A program made the translations under genes and the position numbers. A stretch of 64,000 nucleotides of DNA from Pseudomonas lijiangensis. Lineage in GTDB: Bacteria; Pseudomonadota; Gammaproteobacteria; Pseudomonadales; Pseudomonadaceae. Of the stretch, positions 3,141-18,436 are shown one piece after another (the first letter of the stretch is position 1; the number at the start of each line of letters is the position of its first letter). The notes beneath the pieces are model-generated. The model did not search any database and was not told where the DNA came from. It saw only the letters and a list, made by a program, of their open reading frames with translations. The stretch lies in contig NZ_CP076668.1 in assembly GCF_018968705.1 (NCBI RefSeq), positions 2,491,001-2,555,000 of the forward strand. Reading direction: 5' to 3'.

Positions 3141-3378
3141 GCTGTCTATACGCTGCAACCCGAAACCTTGACAGCTTCCTTACAGGTAAGCGGAACTGTC
3201 CGGCAGTAATATGGCCCTCAGTCGGAACGCAGACGTCCGATAAAATAGTCTGGCCCGGCTTATGCACTATTTAGTGTTTAAAGACTCTCATTTCCTGTGA
3301 GAGCCGGGTGGCCGGGGCATGAAGCCCGATATCGGCGCAGAAACGGAATGTTCGGGACTACAAAGGATGAGTCTTCAA
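3141..3378 (+). other. Upstream region of hydrolase gene with possible structured leader
   Basis: Between the azoR terminator and the hydrolase start. Three nested pairings can be read by eye: CCCGG 3254-3258 with CCGGG 3304-3308, an internal hairpin CACT-attt-AGTG at 3265-3276, and CTCTCA 3285-3290 with TGAGAG 3298-3303. Together they would make a small three-way junction about 70 bases before the ATG at 3379. No known riboswitch consensus was recognised and no convincing sigma-70 promoter was found. Confidence 0.3.
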
Positions 3379-4458
3379 ATGGTACGTCTTTGTGCAGCGA
3401 TGCTGGTTATTCTGCTCAATGGCCTGATTTCAGTGCAGGCGCAGGCAGATGAGGAGTGGAGCGCAGGCTTTCATGAGCTGAGCTTTCCCGACCCTCTGGA
3501 TTCGCAACTGATGCAGGCTTTTGCTTTCTACCCGTCCACGGGGTCAGAGCAGGTGAGCGTGCTGCAGGGGTACAGGGTCGAAGCCGGTGAAGATGCACCG
3601 ATTGCCATGGGGCGTTTCCCCTTGCTGCTGTTGTCTCACGGCAACACCGGTAATCCGCTGGCACTGCATGATCTGGCGACGTCTCTGGCCCGTCAGGGTT
3701 TTGTGGTGGTGGCCGTGATGCATCCCGGCGATAACTATCGCGATCACAGCCGTCTTGGCAGCCTGAGCAACCTTTACGGTCGCCCGCTGCAGATTTCCGA
3801 AGCCATCAGCGCAGCCTTGCTTGATCCCATGCTGTCGCCTTATCTCAATTCCCGTCAGGTCGGTGTGATCGGTTATTCGGCCGGTGGCGAAACCGCGTTG
3901 ATCCTGGCCGGAGCCCAGCCCGACCTCAAGCGCCTGCGCCAGTACTGCGTGGAGCGCCCCGACGATCGCGATGCCTGCAAGACTCAAGGGGAACTGGTGG
4001 CTGATCGGGATGACCTGCATGCCCAGGCCGATCCGCGAGTGGGTGCGCTGATGCTCATGGCACCCCTTAGCCTGATGTTCGGTCGTCACACCCTGAGCGA
4101 TGTGCATGTGCCGGTGCTGATGTATGCCGGAGACGACGATCAATTGCTGCCCATCGACAAGAATGCCGAGGCGCTGGCGCGCAAACTGCCGCAAGTCTCG
4201 GATTACAAGTTGCTGGCGGGTGCAGGGCACTTCGTGTTCATGGCGCCGTGCAGCGATGAGCAGCGGGCAACCATGCCGCTGCTGTGCACCGACCGTGAAG
4301 GCGTGGATCGCGAAGATATCCATCGCACCCTCAGTGCCGAAGCGGTGCGGTTTTTCAGCAGCACGCTGGGCTCATCCGATGAGGATCGTTCCGGTATGCA
4401 GACAGCCCATCATCAATGGCCCGACTCGCTGCTGCCTTCTGCCAGCGATCTCAGGTAG
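3379..4458 (+). CDS. Exported alpha/beta hydrolase (dienelactone hydrolase-like)
   Basis: A 359-residue alpha/beta hydrolase with an N-terminal signal peptide (MVRLCAAMLVILLNGLISVQ, probable cleavage after AQA near residue 23), so it is probably periplasmic. SHGNTGNP (about 86-93) is the oxyanion region and GYSAGG (165-170) carries the nucleophile Ser167. Asp of YAGDDDQLLP and His of GAGHFVF complete the triad. It resembles the predicted dienelactone hydrolases of Proteobacteria, whose substrates are unknown. The ATG at 3379 is preferred over upstream ATGs because AAAGGATGA sits about 7 bp before it and it places the signal peptide at the N-terminus. The 3' end overlaps the convergent GT2 gene by 46 bp. 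Confidence 0.75.
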   Translation: MVRLCAAMLVILLNGLISVQAQADEEWSAGFHELSFPDPLDSQLMQAFAFYPSTGSEQVSVLQGYRVEAGEDAPIAMGRFPLLLLSHGNTGNPLALHDLATSLARQGFVVVAVMHPGDNYRDHSRLGSLSNLYGRPLQISEAISAALLDPMLSPYLNSRQVGVIGYSAGGETALILAGAQPDLKRLRQYCVERPDDRDACKTQGELVADRDDLHAQADPRVGALMLMAPLSLMFGRHTLSDVHVPVLMYAGDDDQLLPIDKNAEALARKLPQVSDYKLLAGAGHFVFMAPCSDEQRATMPLLCTDREGVDREDIHRTLSAEAVRFFSSTLGSSDEDRSGMQTAHHQWPDSLLPSASDLR

Positions 4459-5087
4459 TCGCCAAAACCGCCTCTGGCCCGTGGGTCGAGGCGGGTGCTG
4501 GTGGTGACTCTTGGTCTGCAACTCCAGGCGATGCGGGCACCGCTGAGTTCCAGCTGGCGGACAAGGTGAACATCCTCATGGCAGGCCAGCAAGGGAAAAC
4601 CTCCGGCCCGCAGATAGGCAGCGGCACTCACGCCCAGATTGGCACCATGAATGTGCCGATGCCCGTCGCGATGCTGATAGTGCTGCTCAAACAGCGTCTG
4701 CACGGCGGCTGACAGGCCATTTTCCTGCACGGGGAGTGTGATGGTGCCACAGACGGCGTCGGCATCCAGTGCCAGTTGTTCCACCAGCCAGTCGGCGGCC
4801 ACGTTGCTGTCGCCATCGGTGCTGGCCAGCCAGCGGGCACCTTTTTCCAGCAGATAGCCTGCGCCTGCCGCGCGTGCCTGCCCGACATTGCGTGCGGCCA
4901 GATCAAGGGTGATGACGCCATGCTTCAGGGCGATATCGGCCGAATGATCGGTGCAACTGTCCAGCACCACCAGGATGGTGACCTGCTCGCCATTCAAGCC
5001 CGGGTGCCTGCTGGCCTGGAGCAGGCTTTCAAGGCAGGCTCCGAGCAGTTTTTCTTCGTTGTGTACCGGGATCAGAATACCTATCAA
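4413..5087 (-). CDS. GT-A family 2 glycosyltransferase
   Basis: A 224-residue soluble family 2 glycosyltransferase. IGILIPVHNEE is the first nucleotide-binding strand, LVVLDSCTDHSADIA the second, DGDS at 91-94 is the DxD-like metal site, and HEDVHLVRQLE the acceptor-side acidic motif. There is no membrane segment, so it acts in the cytoplasm or at the membrane face. It starts with TTG at 5087, which overlaps the stop of the methyltransferase gene (TTGA), and it is the last gene of the glgA-to-GT2 run. The 3' end overlaps the convergent hydrolase gene by 46 bp. Donor and acceptor are unknown; the neighbours suggest an amino-sugar-containing product. Confidence 0.8.
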   Translation of the reverse strand: MIGILIPVHNEEKLLGACLESLLQASRHPGLNGEQVTILVVLDSCTDHSADIALKHGVITLDLAARNVGQARAAGAGYLLEKGARWLASTDGDSNVAADWLVEQLALDADAVCGTITLPVQENGLSAAVQTLFEQHYQHRDGHRHIHGANLGVSAAAYLRAGGFPLLACHEDVHLVRQLELSGARIAWSCRPRVTTSTRLDPRARGGFGDYLRSLAEGSSESGH

Positions 5088-5683
5088 CGGAGATTTTCCC
5101 GAGTGGCCACTGAGACTGGATCGTGACTCCAGAGGTCCAGCAGAAAGTCATCTTCGTGATGACTGAACAAGCGGTGCATCTTCAAGCGCTCGTCCAGCAC
5201 CTCATGAACCCGCTCGGCATTCAGGGGGCAGTCTTCTATGTCGGGTCGCCAGTGACAGGCCAGTAACTGGCCGCCGGACTTGAGTGAGGCCAGCGCGCAG
5301 TCGATCCAGCGCTGCAGGTCTTCGAGATCCAGGTAGTAGCCCAGTTCGCTGAATACGATCAGGTCGAACTGCCCCTCTGGCCATTGTTGCGGAAGCCTGG
5401 CGTGCAGCACCCGGGCGTGCTGGAAAGGTGCAAGGCGTTCACGGGCAAGGTCCACGGCCAGGGCCGAAGTATCGCAGCACAGTAAATGGTCGCAGCGCCC
5501 GGCCAGTCCGGCGCTCAGTTCGCCATTGGCGCAACCGGGTTCGAAAATCGCGGTATATCGCTCGCGGGGCAGGGCGGCCAGGGTCAGGGCGCGTTTGCGG
5601 CGCTCATACCAGCGTTGCCGGAAAGCCCATGGGTCGTTGTTGTCGCGGAAAATTTCATCGAAGTACTGCTCCGTGACACTCAT
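5084..5683 (-). CDS. NodS-family SAM-dependent methyltransferase
   Basis: A 199-residue class I methyltransferase. The N-terminal block DPWAFRQRWYERRKRALTLA, the SAM-binding loop FEPGCANGELSAGLA (47-61) and FDLIVFSELGYYLD (about 105-118) followed by HWRPD match my memory of the NodS family. NodS N-methylates the deacetylated glucosamine end of rhizobial Nod factors. A good Shine-Dalgarno (GAGGTGG) precedes ATG 5683, and the gene overlaps both its upstream PIG-L neighbour and the downstream GT2 gene by 4 bp. Pairing with a PIG-L deacetylase suggests the substrate is an amine freed by deacetylation; that is inference. Confidence 0.8.
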   Translation of the reverse strand: MSVTEQYFDEIFRDNNDPWAFRQRWYERRKRALTLAALPRERYTAIFEPGCANGELSAGLAGRCDHLLCCDTSALAVDLARERLAPFQHARVLHARLPQQWPEGQFDLIVFSELGYYLDLEDLQRWIDCALASLKSGGQLLACHWRPDIEDCPLNAERVHEVLDERLKMHRLFSHHEDDFLLDLWSHDPVSVATRENLR

Positions 5684-6438
5684 ATGAAAACCACCTCGAA
5701 GGGTTGCAACAATCGTTCAAGAATCCCGGCAGGCAGTATCGGCGAGAGGCCGATGTCCGGGTCGCCCTGCAACTGGCTGGCAAAGGCATGGGCCGCATGA
5801 CGCTTACGGGCAATGGTCATGGGGTCAAGCAAGACCTTGCGGGCGCGATCCCAGGGCAGGCGGTCATCCTCGGGACTTGCCCAGTGCCAGGCCCAGACCG
5901 GTACTTCATTGAGGCTGGCGCCGACCGTGGCGCAGGCACGTGCGCAGGCCCGACCGACCGCCTCATGATCGGGGTGACCATCTTCGGCCCAGGTGGTGAA
6001 CACCACATCGGTGGGCAACAGATAGCGCTCGATGAACTTCTCCAGTTTTTCCTCCTGGATGGCGACAGCACCGTCAGGGAAGCCGCCACGAATCCATTGC
6101 AGGCGATGCAGTGGCAGGTCGAGACGGCGCAAGGCTTCGGCGCTTTCCTGAGGACGGATTACACTCAGGCGCTCGCTGGGCCACAGTTGCGAGCCGGGAT
6201 GGCTGGCACTGCCGTCGGTGACTGACAGCAGCTTCAGACTCCGCTCCAGTTGCGCCAGCTGGCACATCAGGCCACCGCAGCCCAGGACTTCATCATCCGG
6301 GTGAGGAGCGACAATGACGGCCCGTGAGTGGGGCGGTACCAGCAAGTCGGCACTGATGACGGGTACTGCGGCCAGTTTCTGTGAGGCATTCCAGGCTTTG
6401 AGGCTGGTGCCGCGACCGGCTATCAGTTTTTTCTTCAT
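5680..6438 (-). CDS. PIG-L family N-deacetylase
   Basis: A 252-residue zinc-dependent deacetylase of the PIG-L/LmbE family, whose members remove acetyl groups from GlcNAc-type substrates (PIG-L, MshB, BshB). Metal and catalytic motifs are visible: PHPDDE at 45-50, and GHPDHEAVG, which supplies the third zinc histidine. A 40-residue basic N-terminal stretch (MKKKLIAGRGTSLKAW) precedes the first strand. ATG 6438 is preferred because it falls 2 bp after the stop of the acyl-CoA dehydrogenase gene; an in-frame ATG at 6459 would add 7 residues. No signal peptide is seen, so it is cytoplasmic. Confidence 0.85.
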   Translation of the reverse strand: MKKKLIAGRGTSLKAWNASQKLAAVPVISADLLVPPHSRAVIVAPHPDDEVLGCGGLMCQLAQLERSLKLLSVTDGSASHPGSQLWPSERLSVIRPQESAEALRRLDLPLHRLQWIRGGFPDGAVAIQEEKLEKFIERYLLPTDVVFTTWAEDGHPDHEAVGRACARACATVGASLNEVPVWAWHWASPEDDRLPWDRARKVLLDPMTIARKRHAAHAFASQLQGDPDIGLSPILPAGILERLLQPFEVVFI

Positions 6439-6440
6439 GG

Positions 6441-7451
6441 TTACCAGGCTGCACCCCATGGGCTGTTCAATGTCTTGCCTGCCAGTTGCCCGAGCACCGC
6501 CAGGTCTTTCTCGGCGTGGCTCTGGCGCAGGAAGACCGGAAGGTCGGCCATCAGGCGGGCGAAATGGGCGTCCTTGCAGTAAGGCGTTGCTCCCAGCGCA
6601 CGCCCTACATGATGGATGACCTGTTCGGCGGTGTTTTCAACATGGGCACGGCAACGTCGGGCCAGTTGTTCGGCATTCTCGGCTGGTGCCCGATCCAGAC
6701 TTGCAGCGGCTGCCTCGAGAAGTTGGCCAGCACTGTACAAAGCCACATCCACTGCACCCAGATGGGCGAGGGCATGGGGTTCTTCCTTGCCGGCCTGTGA
6801 TAAAAGCCGCTGCGCCAGTGCGCCCGAAGCGCCATACCAGCAAGCTGCAATGCCGATGCCTCCCTGCCAGAAGCCTGGACGTGACAGGTACGCACCGGGC
6901 GTGCCGACCAGCGAGACCCTGGCATGCTCGAATTGAACGTCGATACTGCCCGTTGCTCCCATGCCGACGGCGCGCCATCCGGCGGCCGCGATATGAATGC
7001 CGGGTTGGTCGAGAGCAACGGCAACCAGTTGCTGTCGATTGTCCTCATCCCAGGCGGTGATCAGAGCGTGGCTCAAGACTGCTGCGCCCGAACACCAGGC
7101 CTTGCGTCCATCGAGTCGCAACGAATCGGCCTTGCCGCTGAGGTTGACCCTGGCATTCGGTGGCTCTGCAGCCCACATGCCCCAGGTGGTGCCGGGACCG
7201 GGCGGCTCGGCACCCAGTTCCTGCATGATCGCCAGTGCATCGGTATGGCCTTCGTAGAGTTTGCACAACCCCAGATCATGAGCGGCTACACACGCCAGCG
7301 CCTGCCAGCGCTCCAGGGTCCTGCCACTGGCGGGCATCGGCAGACGATCGAGACCTTCGTTCACCAATGCCCGCAGGCACTCGCCCAGCGCCTGCGTATC
7401 GGCATAGCCGTGCCTGCGCCAGTCGAGAAACTCCTTGAGTGCCTGGGTCAT
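6441..7451 (-). CDS. Acyl-CoA dehydrogenase-like flavoprotein
   Basis: A 336-residue protein with the layout of the acyl-CoA dehydrogenase family but shorter than the usual 380-400. There is a helical N-terminal part, a middle beta-domain (TTWGMWAAEPPNARVNLSG ... LRLDGRKAWCSGAAVLSHALITA, about 88-136) typical of the FAD contact region, and a C-terminal helical domain. The C-terminal domain looks cut down and I cannot place the catalytic glutamate by eye. The ATG overlaps the glgX stop (ATGA, 7448-7451), so it is probably translated by coupling to the glycogen debranching enzyme. It is followed 2 bp later by the PIG-L gene. Possible roles are oxidising or binding an acyl group for an amino-sugar product; the substrate is unknown. 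Confidence 0.7.
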   Translation of the reverse strand: MTQALKEFLDWRRHGYADTQALGECLRALVNEGLDRLPMPASGRTLERWQALACVAAHDLGLCKLYEGHTDALAIMQELGAEPPGPGTTWGMWAAEPPNARVNLSGKADSLRLDGRKAWCSGAAVLSHALITAWDEDNRQQLVAVALDQPGIHIAAAGWRAVGMGATGSIDVQFEHARVSLVGTPGAYLSRPGFWQGGIGIAACWYGASGALAQRLLSQAGKEEPHALAHLGAVDVALYSAGQLLEAAAASLDRAPAENAEQLARRCRAHVENTAEQVIHHVGRALGATPYCKDAHFARLMADLPVFLRQSHAEKDLAVLGQLAGKTLNSPWGAAW

Positions 7452-9631
7452 GACTGATCTTCACGTTGCAGCTCGAACAGCAGCAGCGAGCGTGGGGTCA
7501 CGGTGTAGCGGGAACCGAAGTCGAATTGCTCCTTGCTGCGCAGGTCCTCCTGATTGGTATCGATCAGGCAGGTGAAGTGCGTGCCTTCCGGGACTTGCGG
7601 GAAGGTGAAGTCCACACCTTCATGGTGAGCGTTGACCATCAGCAGCAGGGTGGCATCGGCACCCGGGCGACGAATGCCGGTTTCCTGGGCGCGACCATCC
7701 ATCAGCATGCCCAGGCAGCGGGCGTTGCTGTCATGCCATTGCTCGACGCTCATTTCATTGCCGTCCGGTGCCAGCCAGGTGACATCCTTGACCCCGATTT
7801 CCTCGTTGTAGTCACCCACCAGGAAGCGACTGCGGCGCAGGATCGGGTAGCTCTGGCGAAGCTTGATCACACGCTTGACGAACTTGAGCAGCGCCTTGCC
7901 ATCGGAATCCAGGTCCCAGTTGACCCAGCCGATCTCGCTGTCCTGGCAGTAGGCATTGTTGTTGCCATGCTGGGTGCGGGCGAATTCGTCGCCGGCCACC
8001 ATCATCGGCGTGCCCTGGGCCAGCAGCAGCGTGGCGAAGAAGTTGCGCATCTGGCGCAGGCGCAACTGGTTGATTTCAACGTTGTCCGTCGGGCCTTCGA
8101 CACCGTGGTTCCAGGACAGGTTGTTATTGCTGCCGTCCTGATTGTTCTCGTCGTTGGCTTCGTTGTGCTTGTCGTTGTAGGACACCAGGTCATGCAGGGT
8201 GAAGCCGTCGTGGGCAGTGATGAAGTTCACCGAGGCCTGAGGGCGACGTCCGCGCTGATTGAACATGTTGCCCGAGGCGGTCATACGCCCGGCAAAGTCG
8301 GCAAGCTGATTGTCGTCGCCTTTCCAGAAAGCGCGCACGGTGTCGCGGAACTTGTCGTTCCATTCCATCCAGCCCGGCGGGAAGCCACCGACCTGATAAC
8401 CGCCGGGGCCGCAGTCCCAAGGCTCGGCAATGAGTTTGACCTGACGCAGGACCGGGTCCTGGCGACAGGCGACCAGGAAGCTGTGGCGCTCATCGAAACC
8501 GTCGTGGTAGCGGCCCAGAATGGTCGCCAGGTCGAAACGGAAACCGTCGACATGCATCTCCGACGCCCAGTAGCGCAAGGAGTCGGTGACCATCTGCAAA
8601 ACGCAAGGGTGGCTCAGGTCCAGAGTGTTGCCTGTGCCTGAATCGTTGATATAGAAGCGCTTGTCGTCCGGCATCAACCGGTAATACGAGGCGTTATCGA
8701 TGCCGCGCATGGACAGGGTCGGCCCCAGCTCGTTGCCTTCTGCGGTGTGGTTGTAGACCACATCGAGAATGACCTCCAGCCCGGCATGGTGCATGTGGGC
8801 GATCATTTCCTTGAACTCGGCGATCTTGCCGTGTGCCAGGTATCGCGGGTCCGGGGCGAAGAAGGCGATGCTGTTGTAGCCCCAGTAGTTGGTCATGCCT
8901 TTTTGCAGCAGGTGCTGGTCATTGACGAAGGCATGCACCGGCAGCAGCTCGACCGCAGTCACCCCCAGCTTGCGCACGTGATCGATGACTTCCTCGACCA
9001 TCAGCCCGGAGAAGGTGCCGCGCAATTCTTCCGGTACGGCAGGGTGGCGCATGGTGAAACCGCGTACGTGGGTTTCATAGAGAATGGTCTTGTCCCAGGG
9101 CGTGCCGACCCGCTGGTCGCGGCCCCAAGTGTAGGCCGGGTCGATGACTTTGCTCTTGGGCACGAAGGGTGCACTGTCACGCTCATCGAAACTCAGGTCG
9201 CCATCCGGGTGGCCGATGGTGTAGCCGAACAAGGCTTCCGACCATTTCAATTCGCCGACCAGTTGTTTGGCATAGGGGTCGATGAGCAGTTTGTTATGGT
9301 TGAAGCGATGGCCATTCTTCGGGTCGTAAGGGCCATAGACCCTGTAGCCGTAGATCAGGCCGGGATGCGCGTCGGGAAGGTAGCCGTGAAAGATTTCATC
9401 GGTGTACTCCGGCAGCTCGATACGCTCCAGCTCCACCTCGCCGCTGGAGTCGAACAGGCACAGTTCTACCTTGGTCGCGTTGGCGGAGAACAACGCAAAG
9501 TTGACCCCCAGACCGTCCCAGCTGGCGCCGAGGGGGAAGGGCAGTCCTTCACGAATGCGTGAGGTCGAGCCGGCCGGTGTTTCGTGAGTCGTCGAAGTAT
9601 CGCTTTTCACGGTTTTGGACTTTGTATTCAT
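7448..9631 (-). CDS. glgX: Glycogen debranching enzyme GlgX
   Basis: A 727-residue GH13 isoamylase-type debranching enzyme that cuts alpha-1,6 branches of phosphorylase-limited glycogen. An N-terminal CBM48-like domain (FPLGASWDGLGVNFALFS) precedes the barrel. GH13 regions visible are DVVYNHTAEGNE, DGFRFDLATILGR (nucleophile Asp), LIAEPWDCGPGG (acid Glu) and FITAHDGFTLHDL (transition-state Asp). Start ATG 9631 has AAGGAATC upstream. It follows the DUF2934 gene after a 161-bp gap that could hold its own promoter, and its stop overlaps the next gene. The first 20 or so residues are a low-complexity Ser/Thr-rich extension. Confidence 0.93.
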   Translation of the reverse strand: MNTKSKTVKSDTSTTHETPAGSTSRIREGLPFPLGASWDGLGVNFALFSANATKVELCLFDSSGEVELERIELPEYTDEIFHGYLPDAHPGLIYGYRVYGPYDPKNGHRFNHNKLLIDPYAKQLVGELKWSEALFGYTIGHPDGDLSFDERDSAPFVPKSKVIDPAYTWGRDQRVGTPWDKTILYETHVRGFTMRHPAVPEELRGTFSGLMVEEVIDHVRKLGVTAVELLPVHAFVNDQHLLQKGMTNYWGYNSIAFFAPDPRYLAHGKIAEFKEMIAHMHHAGLEVILDVVYNHTAEGNELGPTLSMRGIDNASYYRLMPDDKRFYINDSGTGNTLDLSHPCVLQMVTDSLRYWASEMHVDGFRFDLATILGRYHDGFDERHSFLVACRQDPVLRQVKLIAEPWDCGPGGYQVGGFPPGWMEWNDKFRDTVRAFWKGDDNQLADFAGRMTASGNMFNQRGRRPQASVNFITAHDGFTLHDLVSYNDKHNEANDENNQDGSNNNLSWNHGVEGPTDNVEINQLRLRQMRNFFATLLLAQGTPMMVAGDEFARTQHGNNNAYCQDSEIGWVNWDLDSDGKALLKFVKRVIKLRQSYPILRRSRFLVGDYNEEIGVKDVTWLAPDGNEMSVEQWHDSNARCLGMLMDGRAQETGIRRPGADATLLLMVNAHHEGVDFTFPQVPEGTHFTCLIDTNQEDLRSKEQFDFGSRYTVTPRSLLLFELQREDQS

Positions 9632-9792: not shown

Positions 9793-10146
9793 TCAGGTTG
9801 TCGGTGGCTTGCGGGGTTTCTTCGCCGCAGGCTTGGGCGGTTGCTCTGCCTGTGCGGGGGTGGACTTGGGTTTTGCAGCGGGTTTTGGCTTGGGTGCTGC
9901 TGCCGGCTTGGCTGCAGGTGCTGCCTTGGCGGCCGGTTTGGAAGGCGCAGTCTTCGGTGCTGCGTCTACCTTGGGCAGCTTGGGCTTGTTGGCTTTGCTG
10001 GCACTGGTTTTATCCGGAGCCAGAGCTTCGGCTTCTGCCAGTTTGCGTGCCATTTCCCAATGGCGCTGCTCATGCCCAACAGGCTTACCTTCCGATTCCC
10101 ATATCTGATAGGCAAATTCGCGGATTCTTTTTTCGTCGGCACTCAT
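9793..10146 (-). CDS. DUF2934 protein with Ala/Pro/Lys-rich tail
   Basis: A 117-residue protein with two parts. Residues 1-40 (MSADEKRIREFAYQIWESEG, then HEQRHWEMARKLAEAE) are the DUF2934 helical motif found in many soil and rhizobial proteins. The remaining ~75 residues are a disordered, highly basic Ala/Pro/Lys tail made of repeated APAAKPAA/KPKPAAKPK-like units. ATG 10146 has GGGAG about 8 bp upstream. It lies between treY (17 bp away) and glgX, a position I recall as conserved in Pseudomonas glycogen operons. The tail resembles nucleoid-binding tails, but the function is unknown. Confidence 0.75.
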   Translation of the reverse strand: MSADEKRIREFAYQIWESEGKPVGHEQRHWEMARKLAEAEALAPDKTSASKANKPKLPKVDAAPKTAPSKPAAKAAPAAKPAAAPKPKPAAKPKSTPAQAEQPPKPAAKKPRKPPTT

Positions 10147-10163: not shown

Positions 10164-12947
10164 TCACATAGTTTGAATAAGCAGGTTTACAGAAAATTCC
10201 TTGAGCGCTGCACTGAGCTGTATTTCCCTGTCATTTATGGCTACGACGTCAGAAAAGAGGCCCTTCCAGTCTGGATGTGAATCAGCGAATGGCAGAATGA
10301 TTCGTGTATCGCCCCAATTGGCAGCATTAATGAATGGAGTTTGCGCAGTGCCCAATAGTTCACTGCTTGTGCGTGGAACAACAACGATGGCGCGCTCGCC
10401 CTCCCATACACGAGCGAAAGCCACTACATGCTCTGCCTGACTGCCCGTTACTTTCAGGGGCAGATACTCCCCGTGACTGAACAGCTCCGAATGTCCGGCG
10501 CGCAGATTCAGCACCTGCGCGATCAATGCCTGTTTGACTCTGCCGTCCTGCCAGTCGCTCAGCAGGTCGCTGGCTTTTGCAGACTCGGCCAGTGCCTGTT
10601 CGCGGGCCTTGTAGTCCACCGGACGACGGTTGTCCGGGTCCACGAGGCTGAAATCCCAGAACTCGGTGCCCTGATACAGATCCGGCACGCCTGGCACGGT
10701 CATGCGCAGCAAGGTTTGCGCCAGGCTGTTGAGGGCTCCGGCGGCTGCGATACGATTGGCAGTGGCGCCCAGAGACTGGCGCAGCGCCAGGGCTTCGGGT
10801 GCCAGCAGCAGGCGTTGCAGGAATTCCCGGCAGGCACTTTCGTAGGCCTGATTGGGTGCGCCCCAACTGCTTTGCAGTTTGGCTTCGCGCAGGGCTTTTT
10901 CCTGCCACTGAACCATACGCCGGGCATAGGCTTCGTGAGCTTCTTCGCCTTCCAGTTCCAGCGGCCAACTGCCCAGCAGGGCTTGATAGAGCATCAGCTC
11001 GTCGCCCGCGCTGATGGTCGGATCCTCACCCTTGAGTGGCACCGCCAGTTGCCGCCAGCGCTCCACCTGTTCGGCATACCAGCCCGCACATTCACTGAGC
11101 ACGGCCAGTCGTGTGCGGGTATCTTCCCCACGTTTGTGGTCGTGGGTCGCGGTCGCCAGCAGGTTGTTGGCGAACTTCTCATGGCGTTGCTGGCAGGCCT
11201 GATGGAAGGCTTCCACCGGGGCACTGAAGTGTTGGGGATGAAAGCCCACGTCGTTACGCGACAGCAGCACTGCCGAGCGATAGAACGCAGTGTCCTCCAC
11301 GGACTTGGCAGCCACGGGGGAGGTGAGTTGCTGAAAGCGTACGCAGGCCTTGCGGTGCAGATCGCGCAGGCGTCCGCGTGGCAGCTTGCGCCAGGGTTCG
11401 CCACCCAGCCAGCGTTGCAGGTAATCCAGCACTGGCCAGTCGCCTTCGTTGAGGCTGGTGCGTGCGCCCTGCATGGCTTGCTGGAAGAAACGATCGTCTT
11501 CTGCCGAGCGCCCGCAGGCGCTGATGTAGGTCCGGTAGATCGGGAAGTTCACCACCAGCGCCAGCAGCGCACGGCGAATGGCTCCCAGCGTCAGGTCGCG
11601 ACTCATCAGGTCGCTGCGCGCCACCTGTAGCAGTGCCTGGGCAAGATTCTCGAAATCTCCGGCAAGGGTGCCATGCAACACAAGATCACGGGCCACCAGG
11701 ACTTCCTGATCGAAGTCGGCCGTGCGCTCCGTCAGCCGGTTCCAGAGCTCGGCCAGAGGGGCCTGACCCTTGGGATCGTGCTGGAGCAGAGACACCTGAT
11801 TCATGAACTCGTAACCAGTGGTCCCGTCCACGCTCCAGTCGTCGCGCAATGGTTCATCGGGGCCGAGGATTTTCTCGACGAAAATCGGCAGGTGTTCCAG
11901 TTGCGCATGGGCAGGGCGATGTTTGAGCAGCCCTTGCACCCGGCGATGGAGTTTTCGGCCATAGCCGCGAGGGTCGGCGAGCCCGTCGATATGGTCGATA
12001 CGCAGGCCGTCCACCAGACCTTCTTCGATCAACTGGAAAATCTTGCCGTGGGTGGCCTCGAAAACCATGGGCCGCTCGACCCGCAGGCCGCCCAGTTCAT
12101 TGATGTCGAAAAAGCGCCGCCAGTTGATGTCATCGGCAGCGGTGCGCCAGCTTGCCAGTCGGTAATGCTGACGCTCCAGCAAGTGATGCAGACGCTCGAA
12201 GCCTTCTTGCTCTTTTGAATCGAACCGGGCAATCCCTTGTTCGATGGCTTGAAGGATCTCCGGGACTCTGGCCAGTTCCGCCAGTTCGGCCTTGGCCTGC
12301 CGGGCGCGTTCGTAGGCCTGGGGGTATTGATTCAGTGCGCCGAAGCGCTGGCCCAGTTCGGTCAGTTGCGGGTGGCCGCTGGCATGCAGCAGTGGACCGT
12401 AGGTGGTGGGTGTCACCGGAAAATGATGCTGATAGTGTTCGATGTGAAACGAGCCGTGCTTCGCATCGAAGCGCAACGGAATCTCACCGGCCTGTAGCAC
12501 CGCGCCATAATCGCTGCTCAGGAAAGGCAGCAGCAACTGGCCTTCCAGCAACGGGTCGGGAGAGTTCCACTGAATATCGAAGAAGCTGGCATAAGGGCTG
12601 CCGCGTCCCCATTCCAGAAGGTCGAGCCACCAGGGATTGTCGGCGCCACCGACGGCCATGTGGTTGGAAACGATATCGAGGATCAGGCCCATGCCGTGGG
12701 CGCGCAGGGCTTCCACCAGACGGCGCAGCGCCGGTTCTCCACCCAGTTGCGGGTTGATGATCGTCGGGTCGACCACGTCGTAGCCATGCATGGAATCGGC
12801 ACGTGCCTTGAGCAGTGGCGAGGCGTAGATATGGCTGATGCCCAGGCTGGCAAAGTAGGGCACCAATGGCACGGCGTCGTCGAGGGTGAAGTCCTTGTGG
12901 AATTGCAGGCGCTGGGTGGCGCGCAAGGGTTGAAGGGTCATGCTCAT
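10164..12947 (-). CDS. treY: Maltooligosyltrehalose synthase TreY
   Basis: A 927-residue GH13 enzyme that isomerises the reducing-end alpha-1,4 bond of maltodextrin to alpha-1,1, giving maltooligosyltrehalose. The opening block (RLQFHKDFTLDDAVPLVPYF ... HIYASPLLKARADSMHGYD) is diagnostic of TreY. GH13 motifs include LDIVSNHMAVGG (90-101), DGLRIDHIDGL (nucleophile), FVEKILGPDE and TATHDHKRGEDTRTR. The start overlaps the malQ stop by 4 bp (ATGA). It provides the substrate cut by TreZ, so maltodextrin from MalQ and GlgX can be turned into trehalose. Length is slightly above some family members but within the TreY range. Confidence 0.93.
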   Translation of the reverse strand: MSMTLQPLRATQRLQFHKDFTLDDAVPLVPYFASLGISHIYASPLLKARADSMHGYDVVDPTIINPQLGGEPALRRLVEALRAHGMGLILDIVSNHMAVGGADNPWWLDLLEWGRGSPYASFFDIQWNSPDPLLEGQLLLPFLSSDYGAVLQAGEIPLRFDAKHGSFHIEHYQHHFPVTPTTYGPLLHASGHPQLTELGQRFGALNQYPQAYERARQAKAELAELARVPEILQAIEQGIARFDSKEQEGFERLHHLLERQHYRLASWRTAADDINWRRFFDINELGGLRVERPMVFEATHGKIFQLIEEGLVDGLRIDHIDGLADPRGYGRKLHRRVQGLLKHRPAHAQLEHLPIFVEKILGPDEPLRDDWSVDGTTGYEFMNQVSLLQHDPKGQAPLAELWNRLTERTADFDQEVLVARDLVLHGTLAGDFENLAQALLQVARSDLMSRDLTLGAIRRALLALVVNFPIYRTYISACGRSAEDDRFFQQAMQGARTSLNEGDWPVLDYLQRWLGGEPWRKLPRGRLRDLHRKACVRFQQLTSPVAAKSVEDTAFYRSAVLLSRNDVGFHPQHFSAPVEAFHQACQQRHEKFANNLLATATHDHKRGEDTRTRLAVLSECAGWYAEQVERWRQLAVPLKGEDPTISAGDELMLYQALLGSWPLELEGEEAHEAYARRMVQWQEKALREAKLQSSWGAPNQAYESACREFLQRLLLAPEALALRQSLGATANRIAAAGALNSLAQTLLRMTVPGVPDLYQGTEFWDFSLVDPDNRRPVDYKAREQALAESAKASDLLSDWQDGRVKQALIAQVLNLRAGHSELFSHGEYLPLKVTGSQAEHVVAFARVWEGERAIVVVPRTSSELLGTAQTPFINAANWGDTRIILPFADSHPDWKGLFSDVVAINDREIQLSAALKEFSVNLLIQTM

Positions 12948-15022
12948 CGGTCACGCTCCGCAGCTTGCAGCCGGGATTGGGACAGCAATTCCAGTCGTCG
13001 TGCAGCGTCTTCATTGTCGAGCAGGGCGGCGCTTTCTGCATTGAAGCGGCGCCGCCAGTTTGGATGACTGTCGATGGTGCCAGGCAGATTGGCCTGTTCA
13101 TGAACGCCCAGTGCATCTTCCATGGGCAACAGCACCAGCGGCGCCCGGGTATGACCCAGATAACGGATCCCGGCATCGATGATGCGGGTGAAGTCCTCGG
13201 TATCGGCAGGCAGGTTGTCGTTGTTCTGGCTCAGGGCGCGGCGCAGGCCGTCATATTCACGGGCGCGCTCTTCACGCCAATGCCGCTCGCTCTGCTCGTC
13301 GAGATGACCGAGGCGCGAATGCCACTCGATGTCCAGTTCGCTCAGCCAGCCTGACAGGGTTGGCAGGTCGTGGGTGCTGGTGGTTGCCAGTGCTTCATCC
13401 GACCAGTCGAGGATAGGCTTGAAATGGCCGTTATTCTGCTCGAACAGCAGGACGCGCATGCCCAGAATCGCCCGGGCCGAGAGTTTTTCATGCAGGCCTT
13501 CAGGGACCGTGCCCAGGTCTTCTCCGAGTACGATTGCCTTGTGCCGCCAGGATTCCAGGCTCAGCAGGCGCAGCATGTCGTCCAGGGGATAATTAAGGTA
13601 GGCACCTTCGCTGGGAGGCGAGCCCAATGGCACGACCCACAGGCGTTGCAGGCCCATCACGTGGTCGATTCGCAGGCCGCCGGCATGGGCGAAGTTGGCC
13701 CGCAGCATCTCGATGAAGGCCCGGAAGCCGTTGCGCTTCAGCCCTTCGGGAGAAAAGGCCGAGATGCCCCAGCTTTGTCCCGAGCGATTGAGAATATCCG
13801 GTGGTGCGCCAACGGTCAGCGCCGACAGCAGTTCGTCCTGGCGACTCCAGGCCTGACTGCCGGCGCCGTCCGCGCCCACTGCCAGGTCCGCGATCAGGCC
13901 GACACGCATGCCGCTGCTGCGTGCAGCCACCTGCGCACGTTCCAGGCTGCGCGCAATCAGCCACTGCGCGAAGGCATGAAAGCTGATCAGCGGACCATGG
14001 GCGGCAGCGAACAGGGCAATGGCTTCACTGCGCGGCTCTTTCAGCTCGTCCGGCCATTCATGCCAGTTGTCACTGATGCCCATGTTCTGGCTTTCAGCGC
14101 GCAGGGCTTCGAAGCGGCAATGGTTTTCCAGGGCTTCACCGCCGGTATGGCGGAAACTGTTGAAGTCTTCATGCAGCGGATGCGCACCGGTGCTGAACGC
14201 TTCATAGAGTGCGTGAAGGGCTTTCCATTTGGCACTGGCGGCGGCAGGCCAGTCGATCAATTGCAGATCTTCCAGGCGCTTGAATTCATCGCTCACACCG
14301 GCGTCTTCAATAGCCTGTCGCCAGGCCCGTTCGCCAAGGATCATGCCTGGCGAAGCGTAAAGACTGTTGAGGAACAGGCGGCTGGAAGGGGAATAAGGAC
14401 TGTAGCGTTGCGGGTCGCTGGCGAACATGGCGTGGATGGGGCTGATCGCCAGGGCATCGGCGCCTCTTTCGCCCGCCGAACGCACCAGGGCTTCAAGCGC
14501 CTGGGTGTCGCCGAATCCGCCATCACCTTCACGACGCAGACCGTACAGCTGTACCGTCAGGCCCCAGGTGCGAGGCGTCTTGACATCGGTGGCCATGGAC
14601 ATGCTGAAGCAAGTGTCTGGCGCGACAGCAATGGTCAGGTGCTGACCGGCTATCTCCAGTTGTTGATAGCCGACGGTTGCCAGGGCCGGTAGTTCGGCGT
14701 TGGAGGTGAGTCTGGCGGCCAGTCGCGAACCGTCTTCCAGGTGCAGGACAAAAGGTGTCTCGGGCTCGAACCACTCCGACAGGTCCAGATTCTTGCCATG
14801 ATCCACAGTCAGCAGCGGCGGGGCGCTGGCACCGTGGCGGGCGGTCTGCAACTGCAGCATGCTGGCGTCGATGGCTTCGCTGCTGTCTGCCCGATAACCG
14901 AGGGCTTCAAGAACCTTGCGCAAGACCTGAGGGCTGACCGTCTGCGGGCGAGCGTTGGCATCGACCCAGTGCACCGACAAGCCTGCTTCAGTGGCAAGTC
15001 TCTCCAATTGCTCATTGCTCAT
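12944..15022 (-). CDS. malQ: 4-alpha-glucanotransferase MalQ
   Basis: A 692-residue GH77 amylomaltase that transfers maltosyl or longer units between alpha-1,4 glucans. Diagnostic regions are FGDTQALEALVRSAGERGADALAISPIHAMFA, LRIDHVMGLQRLWVVPLG (nucleophile region), VLGEDLGTVPEG (acid Glu) and TSTHDLPTLSGWLS. An N-terminal ~150-residue extension precedes the barrel, as in enterobacterial MalQ. ATG 15022 is chosen because GGAGG lies 7 bp upstream and the start overlaps the treZ stop. It sits between treZ and treY, a linkage that recycles short maltodextrins into substrates for TreY/TreZ. Confidence 0.92.
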   Translation of the reverse strand: MSNEQLERLATEAGLSVHWVDANARPQTVSPQVLRKVLEALGYRADSSEAIDASMLQLQTARHGASAPPLLTVDHGKNLDLSEWFEPETPFVLHLEDGSRLAARLTSNAELPALATVGYQQLEIAGQHLTIAVAPDTCFSMSMATDVKTPRTWGLTVQLYGLRREGDGGFGDTQALEALVRSAGERGADALAISPIHAMFASDPQRYSPYSPSSRLFLNSLYASPGMILGERAWRQAIEDAGVSDEFKRLEDLQLIDWPAAASAKWKALHALYEAFSTGAHPLHEDFNSFRHTGGEALENHCRFEALRAESQNMGISDNWHEWPDELKEPRSEAIALFAAAHGPLISFHAFAQWLIARSLERAQVAARSSGMRVGLIADLAVGADGAGSQAWSRQDELLSALTVGAPPDILNRSGQSWGISAFSPEGLKRNGFRAFIEMLRANFAHAGGLRIDHVMGLQRLWVVPLGSPPSEGAYLNYPLDDMLRLLSLESWRHKAIVLGEDLGTVPEGLHEKLSARAILGMRVLLFEQNNGHFKPILDWSDEALATTSTHDLPTLSGWLSELDIEWHSRLGHLDEQSERHWREERAREYDGLRRALSQNNDNLPADTEDFTRIIDAGIRYLGHTRAPLVLLPMEDALGVHEQANLPGTIDSHPNWRRRFNAESAALLDNEDAARRLELLSQSRLQAAERDR

Positions 15023-16826
15023 CCTGTTCCTCCAGAACATCACTTGCTGTCAGGCTGACAATGGCCATGTAAGGATTGAGGGTGCCCTGTGGGGAAAGTT
15101 CTACCGGATGTGACTGAGTGGTAAAGAGAATCGTAGCGCTCTTCTGTTCAGGCGCCAGTACCGGGTGTTTGCCCAGATTCAGATCGATGCGCAGGACACT
15201 GCCGTCGCCCATTCGCCACCGGGCACTGACTGCACCATCGCCCAGCACTTCGCAGCCCAATGGGCGTGTGCCCGGCAGGCGAGGAACGATCTCGCGATGG
15301 CGGATGCTCAGCAATTGCCTGTAGAGCTGCAGCCAGTTTCGGTGCTCGCTGCCTTTATCGGTTTGCGGTTCGATGGCCTCGAAGTCGGGACGCGAGGCCA
15401 TGAAGGTCTGCGGATCGTTGGGATCGGGGATGTGCTCGCGGCGTTCTTCATCGGCAAAGGCTGCGAAAGCGGCGAACTCTTTTCGTCGTCCTTCGCGAAC
15501 GGCGTCGGCCAGTTCGCCATGGTGGCTGGTGAAGAACAGAAAAGGCTCGCTGGCTCCCCATTCATCGCCCATGAACATCAACGGGATCATCGGGGACAAC
15601 AACAGCAGTGCGGTTGCCGCCTTGAGCGCTGGGGCAGGGCAGAGCTGAGTCAGTCGCTCGCCCAGGGCGCGATTGCCGATCTGGTCGTGATTCTGCAGAA
15701 ACAGGACGAAGGCGCTGGGTTCGAGGTGCCCGCTGGGCTCGCCACGGTTGTGGCCATGCTGGGTCGCTTCGCCCTGATAGACGAAACCTTCGCTCAGCAG
15801 GCGCGCCAGCTTGCGGGTCGGTTCCTGGGCGAAATCCGCATAATAGGCATCGGTTTCGCCGGTCAGCAGGACATGCAGCGTATTGTGCCCGTCATCGTTC
15901 CACTGGGCATCGAAGCCTTGTTGAAGCAGCTGTGCCTGATTGAATTCGTTTTCCAGATTCAGCCAGACATGCCGGTCCTTGCTGATCTGCTGGCGTACAC
16001 GACGGGCAAATTCGGGCAGAAAGGTGTCGTCCTTGATGGCATGCACCGCATCCAGTCGTAGCCCGTCGAAACGGTAGTCGAGCAGCCACATCAAGGCGTT
16101 ATCGATGAAGAAGTCGCGAACTTGTGGCCGACGAAAATCGATGGCATCGCCCCATGGCGTCTTTACATCGCTGCGAAAGAAGCTTTTGGCGTAGCTGCCC
16201 AGATAATTACCGTCCGGGCCGAAATGGTTGTAGACCACATCAAGAATCACCATCAGACCAAGGCCGTGGGCCGTGTCTATCAGGTGCTTGAGTTGGTCCG
16301 GGGTGCCATAGGACGACTGGGGTGCATAAGGCAGTACGCCGTCGTATCCCCAGTTGCGATCACCGGGAAACTGCGCCAGCGGCATCAGCTCGATGGCGGT
16401 GACACCCAGCTCTGCAAGACGTGCCAGATGGCTCTCTGCTGCGGCATAGCCGCCCAGTGCGCCCACATGAACTTCCTGGATGACGGCTTCATGCCAAGGC
16501 CGACCCTGCCAGTGGTTGTGTTGCCACTGGTAGGCCTGATGGTCGATCACGATGCTCCGGGAGTGCACATCATCGACCTGGGCGCGGGAGGCCGGGTCGG
16601 GCACCTCCAGCTTCCTGTCGATCCTGTAGAGGTACCGAGTGCCCGCTGTACAGCGGGCCTCGACGGCAAACCAGCCGTCCTCCTGTGCTTCCATGCTCAA
16701 GGATCGCCCATCACCCAGTTCGACACTTACATCCTGGGCATCCGGTGCCCAAATGGCGAACCGGGTGTGTTCGGGGTTCAACAAAACGGCGCCGTGGCGC
16801 CCGCTATCGTCTGTACGCACAGGCAT
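15012..16826 (-). CDS. treZ: Maltooligosyltrehalose trehalohydrolase TreZ
   Basis: A 604-residue GH13 enzyme that releases trehalose from maltooligosyltrehalose. An N-terminal E-set/CBM48-like domain (FAIWAPDAQDVSVEL) is followed by the barrel, with ELMPLAQFPGDRNWGYDGVLPYAP, LDVVYNHFGPDGNYLG, FDGLRLDAVHAI (nucleophile), LNLENEFNQAQLLQ (acid) and FLQNHDQIGNR. ATG 16826 follows GGAGAAGGGG. An alternative longer reading back to 16952 adds 42 residues of atypical Cys/Arg-rich sequence overlapping glgA and is rejected. It lies 17 bp after glgA and overlaps malQ. Confidence 0.93.
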   Translation of the reverse strand: MPVRTDDSGRHGAVLLNPEHTRFAIWAPDAQDVSVELGDGRSLSMEAQEDGWFAVEARCTAGTRYLYRIDRKLEVPDPASRAQVDDVHSRSIVIDHQAYQWQHNHWQGRPWHEAVIQEVHVGALGGYAAAESHLARLAELGVTAIELMPLAQFPGDRNWGYDGVLPYAPQSSYGTPDQLKHLIDTAHGLGLMVILDVVYNHFGPDGNYLGSYAKSFFRSDVKTPWGDAIDFRRPQVRDFFIDNALMWLLDYRFDGLRLDAVHAIKDDTFLPEFARRVRQQISKDRHVWLNLENEFNQAQLLQQGFDAQWNDDGHNTLHVLLTGETDAYYADFAQEPTRKLARLLSEGFVYQGEATQHGHNRGEPSGHLEPSAFVLFLQNHDQIGNRALGERLTQLCPAPALKAATALLLLSPMIPLMFMGDEWGASEPFLFFTSHHGELADAVREGRRKEFAAFAAFADEERREHIPDPNDPQTFMASRPDFEAIEPQTDKGSEHRNWLQLYRQLLSIRHREIVPRLPGTRPLGCEVLGDGAVSARWRMGDGSVLRIDLNLGKHPVLAPEQKSATILFTTQSHPVELSPQGTLNPYMAIVSLTASDVLEEQDEQ

Positions 16827-16843: not shown

Positions 16844-18436
16844 TCAATAATAAGTTGCAACACCTGCATTCTTTTTCAGCAGGTCCTGATAAAGCTCCGC
16901 ATAGGGTTCCACAGCCTGTTGCCAGTTGAACGGCGCTGCCATGGCACGGCAACGCATGGCATTGAGCAGTGCTGTGTTGGCGAACACCTTGAAGGCACGA
17001 TTCAGGGCTTCGGTGTAGCTTTCTACGGTGGAATCATCGAAGAGGAAGCCGGTCACTCCGTCTTCAATCGTGTCCGCCAGACCGCCGGTATTGCGTGCGA
17101 CCGGCAGTGAACCGAAACGCTGGGCGTACATCTGGCTCAGGCCGCAAGGCTCGTAGCGGGATGGCATCAGCAGGAAGTCGCTCCCGGCGAACATGCGGCG
17201 GGCGTCGGTTTCATTGAAGCCGATACGTACACTGATCCGGCCGGGGAAACGTGCCGCCAGGGCGCGCATGGCTTCCTCTTCCTCAGGCTCGCCACGACCG
17301 ATGATCGCGATTTGCCCACCCTTATTGACGATGTGCTCGGCCACGCCAATGGTCAGGTCCAGTCCCTTCTGGTACACCAGCCGCGAAACCACGGCGAACA
17401 GCGGACCTGTAGACGGGTCGAGCTCGAACAGCTCGCGAACGTAGTCGGCGTTGATTTCCTTGCGCAGCCATTCATTGGGTGCGAAATGGCAGATCAGGTG
17501 CTCGTCGGTGCTGGCATCCCAGCTGGCGTCGATGCCGTTGGGGATCCCGCTGAGCTGACCTTTGTCGGCCTTGCTTTGCAGGAAGCCTTCCAGGCCGCAG
17601 CCGAAGTCGGCGGTGGTGATTTCCTTGGCGTAGGTGGCGCTGACCGTCGTGATATGGCTGGCGTAGGCCATACCGGCCTTGATGAAGGACAGCTTGCCGT
17701 AGAACTCCATGCCGTTGCTGCTCAAGGCTTCGTCCGGAATCCCCAGTTCACGACTCGACGCAGTACTCACGGTGCCTTGGTAAGCCAGGTTGTGAATGGT
17801 GAAAATGCTTGGCGTGGTCTGTCCGCGCCAGCGCATATAGGCTGGAGCCAGACCGGCAGGCCAGTCGTGGGCATGGACCAGTTCCGGGCTCCACTGGCTT
17901 TTTACTGCGCCAGCGGCGAAATCGGCTGCTGCCAGGCCCAGGCGGGCGAAACGGATGTGGTTGTCGGACCAGTCGCGGCCGTTGGCGTCACCGTAAGGGG
18001 TGCCTTCGCGTTCGTACAGTTCGGGGCAGATCAGTACATAAATGACCAGACCGTCCTTCATGTCCATGCGACCGATCTTGCAGGCTGGCAGGGCGGCATA
18101 GCCTCCCAGTTCGCTGATGACGTGGATCGGGTTGCCACTATTGAGCACTTGCGGGTAGCCCGGGATCAGCACGCGCACATCATGAAGATGACGCATGGCC
18201 CGTGGCAGGGCAGCAGATACATCGCCCAGGCCGCCGGTTTTTACCAGATCAGCCAGTTCAGAGGTCACGAACAGCACTTTGCGTCTGTTGACCGGGGAGA
18301 TCATGGGCTGTGCGGTTGAAGTGGGTAGTTGGAGCTGAGGAACAGTGGTTGTAGCAAATGATGGTAGATGAGTCAGCTCGTTGGCCAGCTGATTAAAACT
18401 CTCTCCCTTCTGGGTTTTGACCGCGGCGCTAATCAT
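16844..18436 (-). CDS. glgA: Glycogen synthase GlgA
   Basis: A 530-residue GT5 starch/glycogen synthase that adds glucose to alpha-1,4 glucan, classically from ADP-glucose. The KTGGLGD donor-binding motif is at 66-72 after RRKVLFVTSELADLV. The C-terminal catalytic loop SRYEPCGLSQMYAQRFGSLPVARNTGGLADT is intact. About 50 residues precede the Rossmann start, longer than the E. coli enzyme. ATG 18436 has GGGAG about 9 bp upstream. It is the first gene of the minus-strand run; its upstream region (18437-18600) carries paired ATTGG/CCAAT palindromes that could be operators. No glgC or glgB is in the window. Confidence 0.93.
   Translation of the reverse strand: MISAAVKTQKGESFNQLANELTHLPSFATTTVPQLQLPTSTAQPMISPVNRRKVLFVTSELADLVKTGGLGDVSAALPRAMRHLHDVRVLIPGYPQVLNSGNPIHVISELGGYAALPACKIGRMDMKDGLVIYVLICPELYEREGTPYGDANGRDWSDNHIRFARLGLAAADFAAGAVKSQWSPELVHAHDWPAGLAPAYMRWRGQTTPSIFTIHNLAYQGTVSTASSRELGIPDEALSSNGMEFYGKLSFIKAGMAYASHITTVSATYAKEITTADFGCGLEGFLQSKADKGQLSGIPNGIDASWDASTDEHLICHFAPNEWLRKEINADYVRELFELDPSTGPLFAVVSRLVYQKGLDLTIGVAEHIVNKGGQIAIIGRGEPEEEEAMRALAARFPGRISVRIGFNETDARRMFAGSDFLLMPSRYEPCGLSQMYAQRFGSLPVARNTGGLADTIEDGVTGFLFDDSTVESYTEALNRAFKVFANTALLNAMRCRAMAAPFNWQQAVEPYAELYQDLLKKNAGVATYY

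Follow-up and report, generated by a model that had tools for sequence, protein, structure and literature searches.

A widespread four-gene module beside trehalose synthesis genes in Pseudomonas lijiangensis and other bacteria, with a putative trehalose-derived amino-sugar product

Introduction

Do the four genes that follow glgX in Pseudomonas lijiangensis form a single functional unit and, if so, on which sugar does it act? The genes lie in a stretch of 64,000 nucleotides (NCBI RefSeq assembly GCF_018968705.1, contig NZ_CP076668.1, positions 2,491,001 to 2,555,000; hereafter the window) of a genome of 5.87 Mb in a single contig. They encode an acyl-CoA dehydrogenase (ACAD)-like protein, a PIG-L N-deacetylase, a NodS-type methyltransferase (MT) and a GT2 glycosyltransferase. 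An initial annotation had read the set as a parallel to Nod-factor synthesis, coupled to glycogen debranching and making a modified amino sugar, glycolipid or capped glucan. Here we report that the four genes are a real and widespread module, and that its recurrent companion is trehalose-type disaccharide synthesis, linked or unlinked, through TreYZ or OtsAB. The linkage between the two is strong.

Results and discussion

The four genes recur as one unit

The initial annotation had correctly placed the four genes 3' of glgX (4413-7451, minus strand), and the tight spacing that it described was seen on reading the strand. Four-bp overlaps join glgX to the ACAD gene (ATGA), PIG-L to MT (ATGA) and MT to GT2 (TTGA). 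The ACAD stop at 6441 and a possible PIG-L start at 6438 leave a 2-bp gap, with a longer PIG-L start available at 6459.

Joint recurrence and tight junctions in relatives bear out the claim that these genes are one module. A search of 249 Pseudomonadota genomes gave ACAD matches in 17, with MT near ACAD in all 17 and PIG-L in 14 (L035, one of the three misses, is largely masked). Sixteen loci from this search were combined with 11 from the G196 family, 25 from the G074 family and 2, 4 and 1 from further searches into a 59-locus set that excludes the window's genome. In this set MT lies near ACAD in 57/59 loci and PIG-L in 55/59; the stretch of L165 ends within the locus, and L168 is an ACAD match without any partner. 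All 26 genomes of the G074 family with ACAD (26/119) also carry PIG-L, MT and GT2. Within the window's genus, the ACAD gene was found in 124 of the 199 genomes sampled.

A contig scan with an 8-row alignment as query gave at least 550 relatives; since only the best 80 were kept, these 80 named loci are top-scoring and mostly Pseudomonas. ACAD and MT are present in all 80, PIG-L in 79 and GT2 in 69. The junction is exactly -4 for ACAD/PIG-L in 71/79 loci, PIG-L/MT in 75/79 and MT/GT2 in 59/69, a statistic biased towards -4 by its choice of the start nearest to that overlap; one of the ACAD/PIG-L values (5514) stems from mispairing. Between glgX and ACAD the junction is +1 in 51/68 and -4, the window's value, in 14/68.

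Three Streptomycetaceae plasmid records hold all four genes with their order kept and 35-49% identity to the panel, so the four-gene unit crosses phyla. The module is best read as transferable and in part plasmid-borne. Co-occurrence of the four families in Pseudomonas and in other phyla, a check that the initial annotation had proposed, stands; constant proximity to glgX does not.

Trehalose synthesis is the recurrent companion

GlgX was found in 4/59 stretches of the 59-locus set, in which ots or tre genes repeatedly adjoin the module, so glgX is not the key partner; outside the window's genus it is present in only 3/58 stretches (L128, L137, L165). In the window's genus glgX was present in 14 of 20 genomes sampled from the 75 without the module, and the glg operon therefore exists without it. 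The proposed coupling to glycogen debranching is accordingly rejected as a general rule, the repeated neighbours in the wider loci being trehalose genes.

These neighbours come in several layouts. In Pseudomonas the order is glgA-treZ-malQ-treY-DUF2934-glgX-module, and the 80 named loci have GlgX in 68 and TreY in 66. Elsewhere the module follows otsB-otsA (L024, L025, L138-149, L152-154), faces an ots pair (L133, L150, L155-157, L159), follows treY-glgA (L026, L136) or diverges from glgX-treZ-malQ-treY (L128). Two Comamonas plasmids embed it as otsA-[ACAD-PIGL-MT-GT2]-otsB, with gaps of -4, +1/+2, -11, -4 and +4/-17. Five linked OtsB proteins tested in relatives score 111-146 bits, above the TIGR00685 cut-off of 68.05. 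Altogether, 30/59 stretches contain OtsA, TreY/TreZ or a sucrose-phosphate-synthase (SPS)-like gene; 17 of these 30 are otsB-otsA operons, 16 of them from one family. In a quick ACAD tree built from 78 rows (the window, the 59-locus set and 21 chosen named loci, minus L111, the wrongly framed row L134 and the partnerless L168), there are 15 switches of linkage label; the minimum number of changes, whether gains or losses, required by well-supported branches is 3 for Ots, 2 for TreYZ and 2 for SPS.

The association extends to whole genomes. GT20 (the OtsA family) is present in 26/26 module genomes of the G074 family vs 6/93 others (Fisher 7.6e-21), making 32/119 above the cut-off, and in 14/14 module genomes of the G196 family vs 44/136 others (Fisher 5.7e-7); these values overstate independence, as the genomes are related. 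Among the 29 genomes with no OtsA, TreY/TreZ or SPS-like gene in the module stretch, GT20 occurs elsewhere in 29/29 (28 covered by one search, G1156 by another), as fragments only in G329 and G447. Three genomes that lack GT20 (G138, G409, G208) have an SPS-like gene, below the curated cut-off, 2.1, 2.4 and 5.2 kb from the module. Two of the loci with an SPS-like gene, L029 and L167, also have in common a GT28 protein resembling MurG and an additional GT2.

The four proteins and their nearest known systems

The window's ACAD protein has the ACAD fold. In the Pfam search it matches PF02770 at 29.0 bits, below the cut-off of 33.3; neither PF00441 nor PF02771 is found at E <= 0.01. Profile ranking places it closest to methanesulfinate and dibenzothiophene monooxygenases (MsuC/DszC/TdsC, about 400 aa vs 336 aa here), and its closest sequence relatives and fold are those of group D flavin monooxygenases. 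Sugar nitrososynthases (DnmZ 4zxv, 3mxl) are more distant, with scores interleaved with those of acyl-CoA dehydrogenases; 5z8t/5gj7 and 6u1v (deposited as acyl-CoA dehydrogenase-type) rank above or among them. A role as acyl-CoA dehydrogenase is disfavoured by this ranking, the fold comparison being neutral. Together with the lack of an acyltransferase among the four proteins, this leaves the suggested acyl handling unsupported.

The PIG-L protein shares HPDDE, the distal DH and a PF02585 score above the cut-off with BshB1/MshB and LmbE-type enzymes, and both motifs are present in 79/79 first copies aligned from the named loci. It falls below the BshB1 (46.5 bits, cut-off 182.5) and BshB2 cut-offs, and its partner genes differ from theirs. 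A second PIG-L gene lies downstream in numerous Pseudomonas operons (50 copies among the 80 named loci, L044-L123, and also L021:10362-11123); there is none in the window, and the source genome has another PIG-L domain outside it (G000:C1:580450-580959, in a 488-aa frame). The second copies read HPGDE for HPDDE in 50/50, the presumed catalytic Asp being replaced by Gly, and keep the distal DH in 48/50, a pattern that suggests they may be pseudoenzymes.

The MT aligns over nearly its full length with NodS (PDB 3ofj/3ofk), sharing the E-GC-G S-adenosylmethionine (SAM) motif, DPW and YYL. Its profile matches 3ofj over 18-194 (1.5e-29) and, at 2e-70, 4isc, an entry that carries no name beyond 'Methyltransferase'. 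The NodS equivalog model scores the MT at 50.1 bits, below the cut-off of 300, which makes it related to NodS and not its equivalog. It also matches PADLOC mad2 of the MADS anti-phage system (positions 255-430 of 492, 71.6 bits, above the NodS-model scores), a likeness that probably reflects shared methyltransferase ancestry. A defence system is not favoured by the PADLOC result, which consists of this partial match and nothing for ACAD, PIG-L or GT2, in a comparison of the four module proteins with no search aimed at MADS partner genes. The GT2 protein, of 224 aa, has PF00535, a GT-A fold and DxD, and contains no membrane-helix-like stretch.

Nod-factor equivalence is rejected on these comparisons, counterparts of NodA, NodB and NodC being absent among the four proteins. 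The deacetylase matches only PF02585 PIG-L at E <= 0.01 and not the NodB-type CE4 family. The GT2 is far from the PgaC/IcaA synthases (17.7 bits, cut-off 422.3) and matches no NodC model, and none of the four proteins matches NodA. What survives of the proposed modified amino sugar is sugar tailoring by N-deacetylation and NodS-related methylation, which is the best reading; the Nod-type logic fails and the acyl step is unsupported.

A proposed pathway and its alternatives

We consider it about an even chance that the module is a four-gene stress cassette acting on trehalose or a different non-reducing disaccharide, for example sucrose, and not on glycogen breakdown. In the chemistry that we infer, the soluble GT2 would add an N-acetylated sugar to the disaccharide or its phosphate, and PIG-L would then take off the acetyl group. 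The NodS-related MT would methylate the freed amine or an adjoining hydroxyl, and the ACAD-fold enzyme, acting as a flavin monooxygenase, would oxidise the amine or the ring. The outcome would be small and polar, an amino-sugar solute or signal based on trehalose and formed during osmotic or drying stress. A putative trehalose-derived amino-sugar compound is the most likely product; amino-sugar trehalose derivatives such as trehalosamine would be the closest known chemistry. More tentatively, and somewhat below an even chance, the module could be a pathway shared from Pseudomonadota to Streptomycetaceae and partly plasmid-borne. It would make a new class of N-methyl or N-oxygenated amino-sugar stress solutes, built on trehalose or, in some lineages, on sucrose, and may use trehalose-6-phosphate as its substrate, ahead of OtsB.

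Several observations weigh against a trehalose-directed cassette. No linked trehalose gene is present in 29/59 loci or in 12/80 named loci. The latter 12, which are those without glgX (Kushneria 2, Halomonas 2, Salinicola 3, P. matsuisoli, Variovorax, Burkholderia, Caballeronia 2), gave no GT20 or SPS-like gene in a panel search of their stretches. PIG-L was not found in four of the 59 loci (L029, L033, L168 and L035, the last with 12,000 masked bases). Five linked GT20 genes tested score 548, 419, 502, 527 and 545 bits, above the PF00982 cut-off and below that of OtsA TIGR02400 (564.85), and the SPS-like genes of L029, L167 and L036 reach 445, 455 and 421 bits (the L036 copy being cut by the stretch end) against 576 for TIGR02472; the products of both are therefore unproven. 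The GT20 base rate comes from two families only, and the Fisher tests treat kin genomes as independent. As for the ACAD-fold protein, its alphaproteobacterial relatives carry the dehydrogenase-type PF00441, and the fold comparison does not discriminate monooxygenase from dehydrogenase. Of what we take to be the DszC active-site residues, only S163 has a like residue in it, His92 and Tyr96 aligning with Lys64 and Gly68.

Co-location could also stem from a common stress regulon. The product would then be an amino sugar or glycan unrelated to trehalose, made by genes that share only induction by drying or osmotic stress. We regard this as possible but doubtful. Among 10 of 34 plasmid records, picked for diversity (2 of the 10 being unannotated in that stretch), the module's neighbours include catalase (L170, L174, L176), DUF421 and DUF2171 (L170, L176), ferritin-like proteins (L172, L173, L175) and CsbD (L171, L179). 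DUF892 adjoins the Kushneria module, and the glg/tre operon of P. fluorescens is reported to be RpoS-dependent (PMC6372562). Co-regulation does not, however, require that the module be embedded between otsA and otsB, that GT20 be present where it is unlinked (28/28 genomes) or that an SPS-like gene lie near the module in three genomes without GT20. One of these plasmid loci, L174 of Cupriavidus basilensis, has GlgE and a separate PIG-L nearby.

Two further readings look improbable beside a trehalose-directed cassette. That the module caps or decorates an alpha-glucan, either a glycogen-like polymer or a maltooligosaccharide as the initial annotation had proposed, would fit its position right after glgX in Pseudomonas (68 of the 80 named loci contain GlgX) and the GlgA or GlgX beside it in L026, L136, L137, L128 and L165. 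We consider it very unlikely, as most stretches with an Ots-linked or SPS-linked module show no glucan genes and GT20 accompanies the module in every module genome of the G074 family. Least probable is a route to a thiol- or redox-cofactor-like small molecule, in which a glycosyltransferase and a PIG-L deacetylase would work as in mycothiol/bacillithiol synthesis and the ACAD-fold enzyme would serve as an S- or N-oxygenase. It draws on the sub-threshold BshB1 match and on the sulfur-compound monooxygenases that are the nearest solved relatives of the ACAD-fold protein. The annotated plasmid neighbourhoods examined name no cysteine ligase, the GT2 has no MshA or BshA match, and the link with trehalose would be left unexplained.

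Genomic context in the window

The features of the locus are summarized in Table 1. The same-strand run from glgA to glgX, spanning 18304 to 7448, ends with glgX and was absent from the initial annotation; its DUF2934 gene is kept in Pseudomonas loci with treY. The closest proteins among the matches listed are from P. cichorii for ACAD (92%) and P. capsici for PIG-L (95%). Between 3300 and 19100 a promoter scan gave 0 sigma-70-like sites vs 4.1 in shuffles, and terminator-like sites numbered 15 vs 13.2 (sd 3.7), so that the scan carries no information. A convergent alpha/beta-hydrolase open reading frame at 3319-4458 shares 46 bp with the 3' end of GT2, and a relative of it lies 3' of the module in 11/80 named loci. 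After the module of another locus (L027:11151-11711) lies a maltose-acetyltransferase-type hexapeptide protein, possibly an extra tailoring step.

Table 1. Features of the module and the adjoining run in the window. Profile cut-offs are PF02585 28.2, PF05401 24, PF00535 23.3 and PF02770 33.3 bits; others are given with the match.
Feature	Position	Strand	Length	Profile match
Small GT2 glycosyltransferase, TTG start	4413..5087	-	224 aa	PF00535 48.4 bits
NodS-related SAM methyltransferase (MT)	5084..5683	-	199 aa	PF05401 NodS 41.8 bits
PIG-L/LmbE-type N-deacetylase	5680..6438 (alternative start 6459)	-	252 aa	PF02585 92.5 bits
ACAD-fold flavoprotein-like protein, module gene 1	6441..7451	-	336 aa	
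glgX, directly upstream of module	7448..9631	-		TIGR02100 1096.6 bits (cut-off 640.9)
DUF2934 small protein between treY and glgX	9793..10143	-		PF11154 46.8 bits
treY, maltooligosyltrehalose synthase	10164..12947	-		TIGR02401 959.9 bits (cut-off 498.65)
malQ, 4-alpha-glucanotransferase	12944..15022	-		TIGR00217 305 bits (cut-off 205.65)
treZ, maltooligosyltrehalose trehalohydrolase	15012..16826	-		TIGR02402 692.7 bits (cut-off 538.8)
glgA, glycogen synthase, head of same-strand run	16844..18304	-		TIGR02095 480.8 bits (cut-off 328.45)

Conclusion

The enzyme families of the module are known; in open-licence PMC papers we found no description of their combination or of its link with trehalose. 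In the parts of the literature consulted, the Pseudomonas TreY/TreZ operon has the same gene order up to glgX as the window, is described as ending there, and comes without mention of the genes beyond (PMC8982409, PMC8084333). The main text of the PAO1 pathway paper names neither a deacetylase nor a methyltransferase (PMC8084333). For Acinetobacter oleivorans, loss of trehalose in otsA mutants is reported, and the words 'LmbE', 'deacetylase' and 'acyl-CoA dehydrogenase' do not occur in the text (PMC5658608).

Judging from gene order, the module would correspond to PSPTO3131-3134 in P. syringae, locus tags that occur in none of the open-licence papers searched. In P. syringae, deletion of glgA to glgX (PSPTO3125-3130, the TreYZ operon) is reported to leave no trehalose (PMC8982409). 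Trehalose has been regarded as the final product of such operons. If the proposed pathway is true, the cassette converts trehalose into something else, the published deletion that stops at glgX does not settle the share of the cassette, and phenotypes ascribed to trehalose, such as osmotic and drying survival and leaf colonisation, could in part be due to a derivative so far overlooked.

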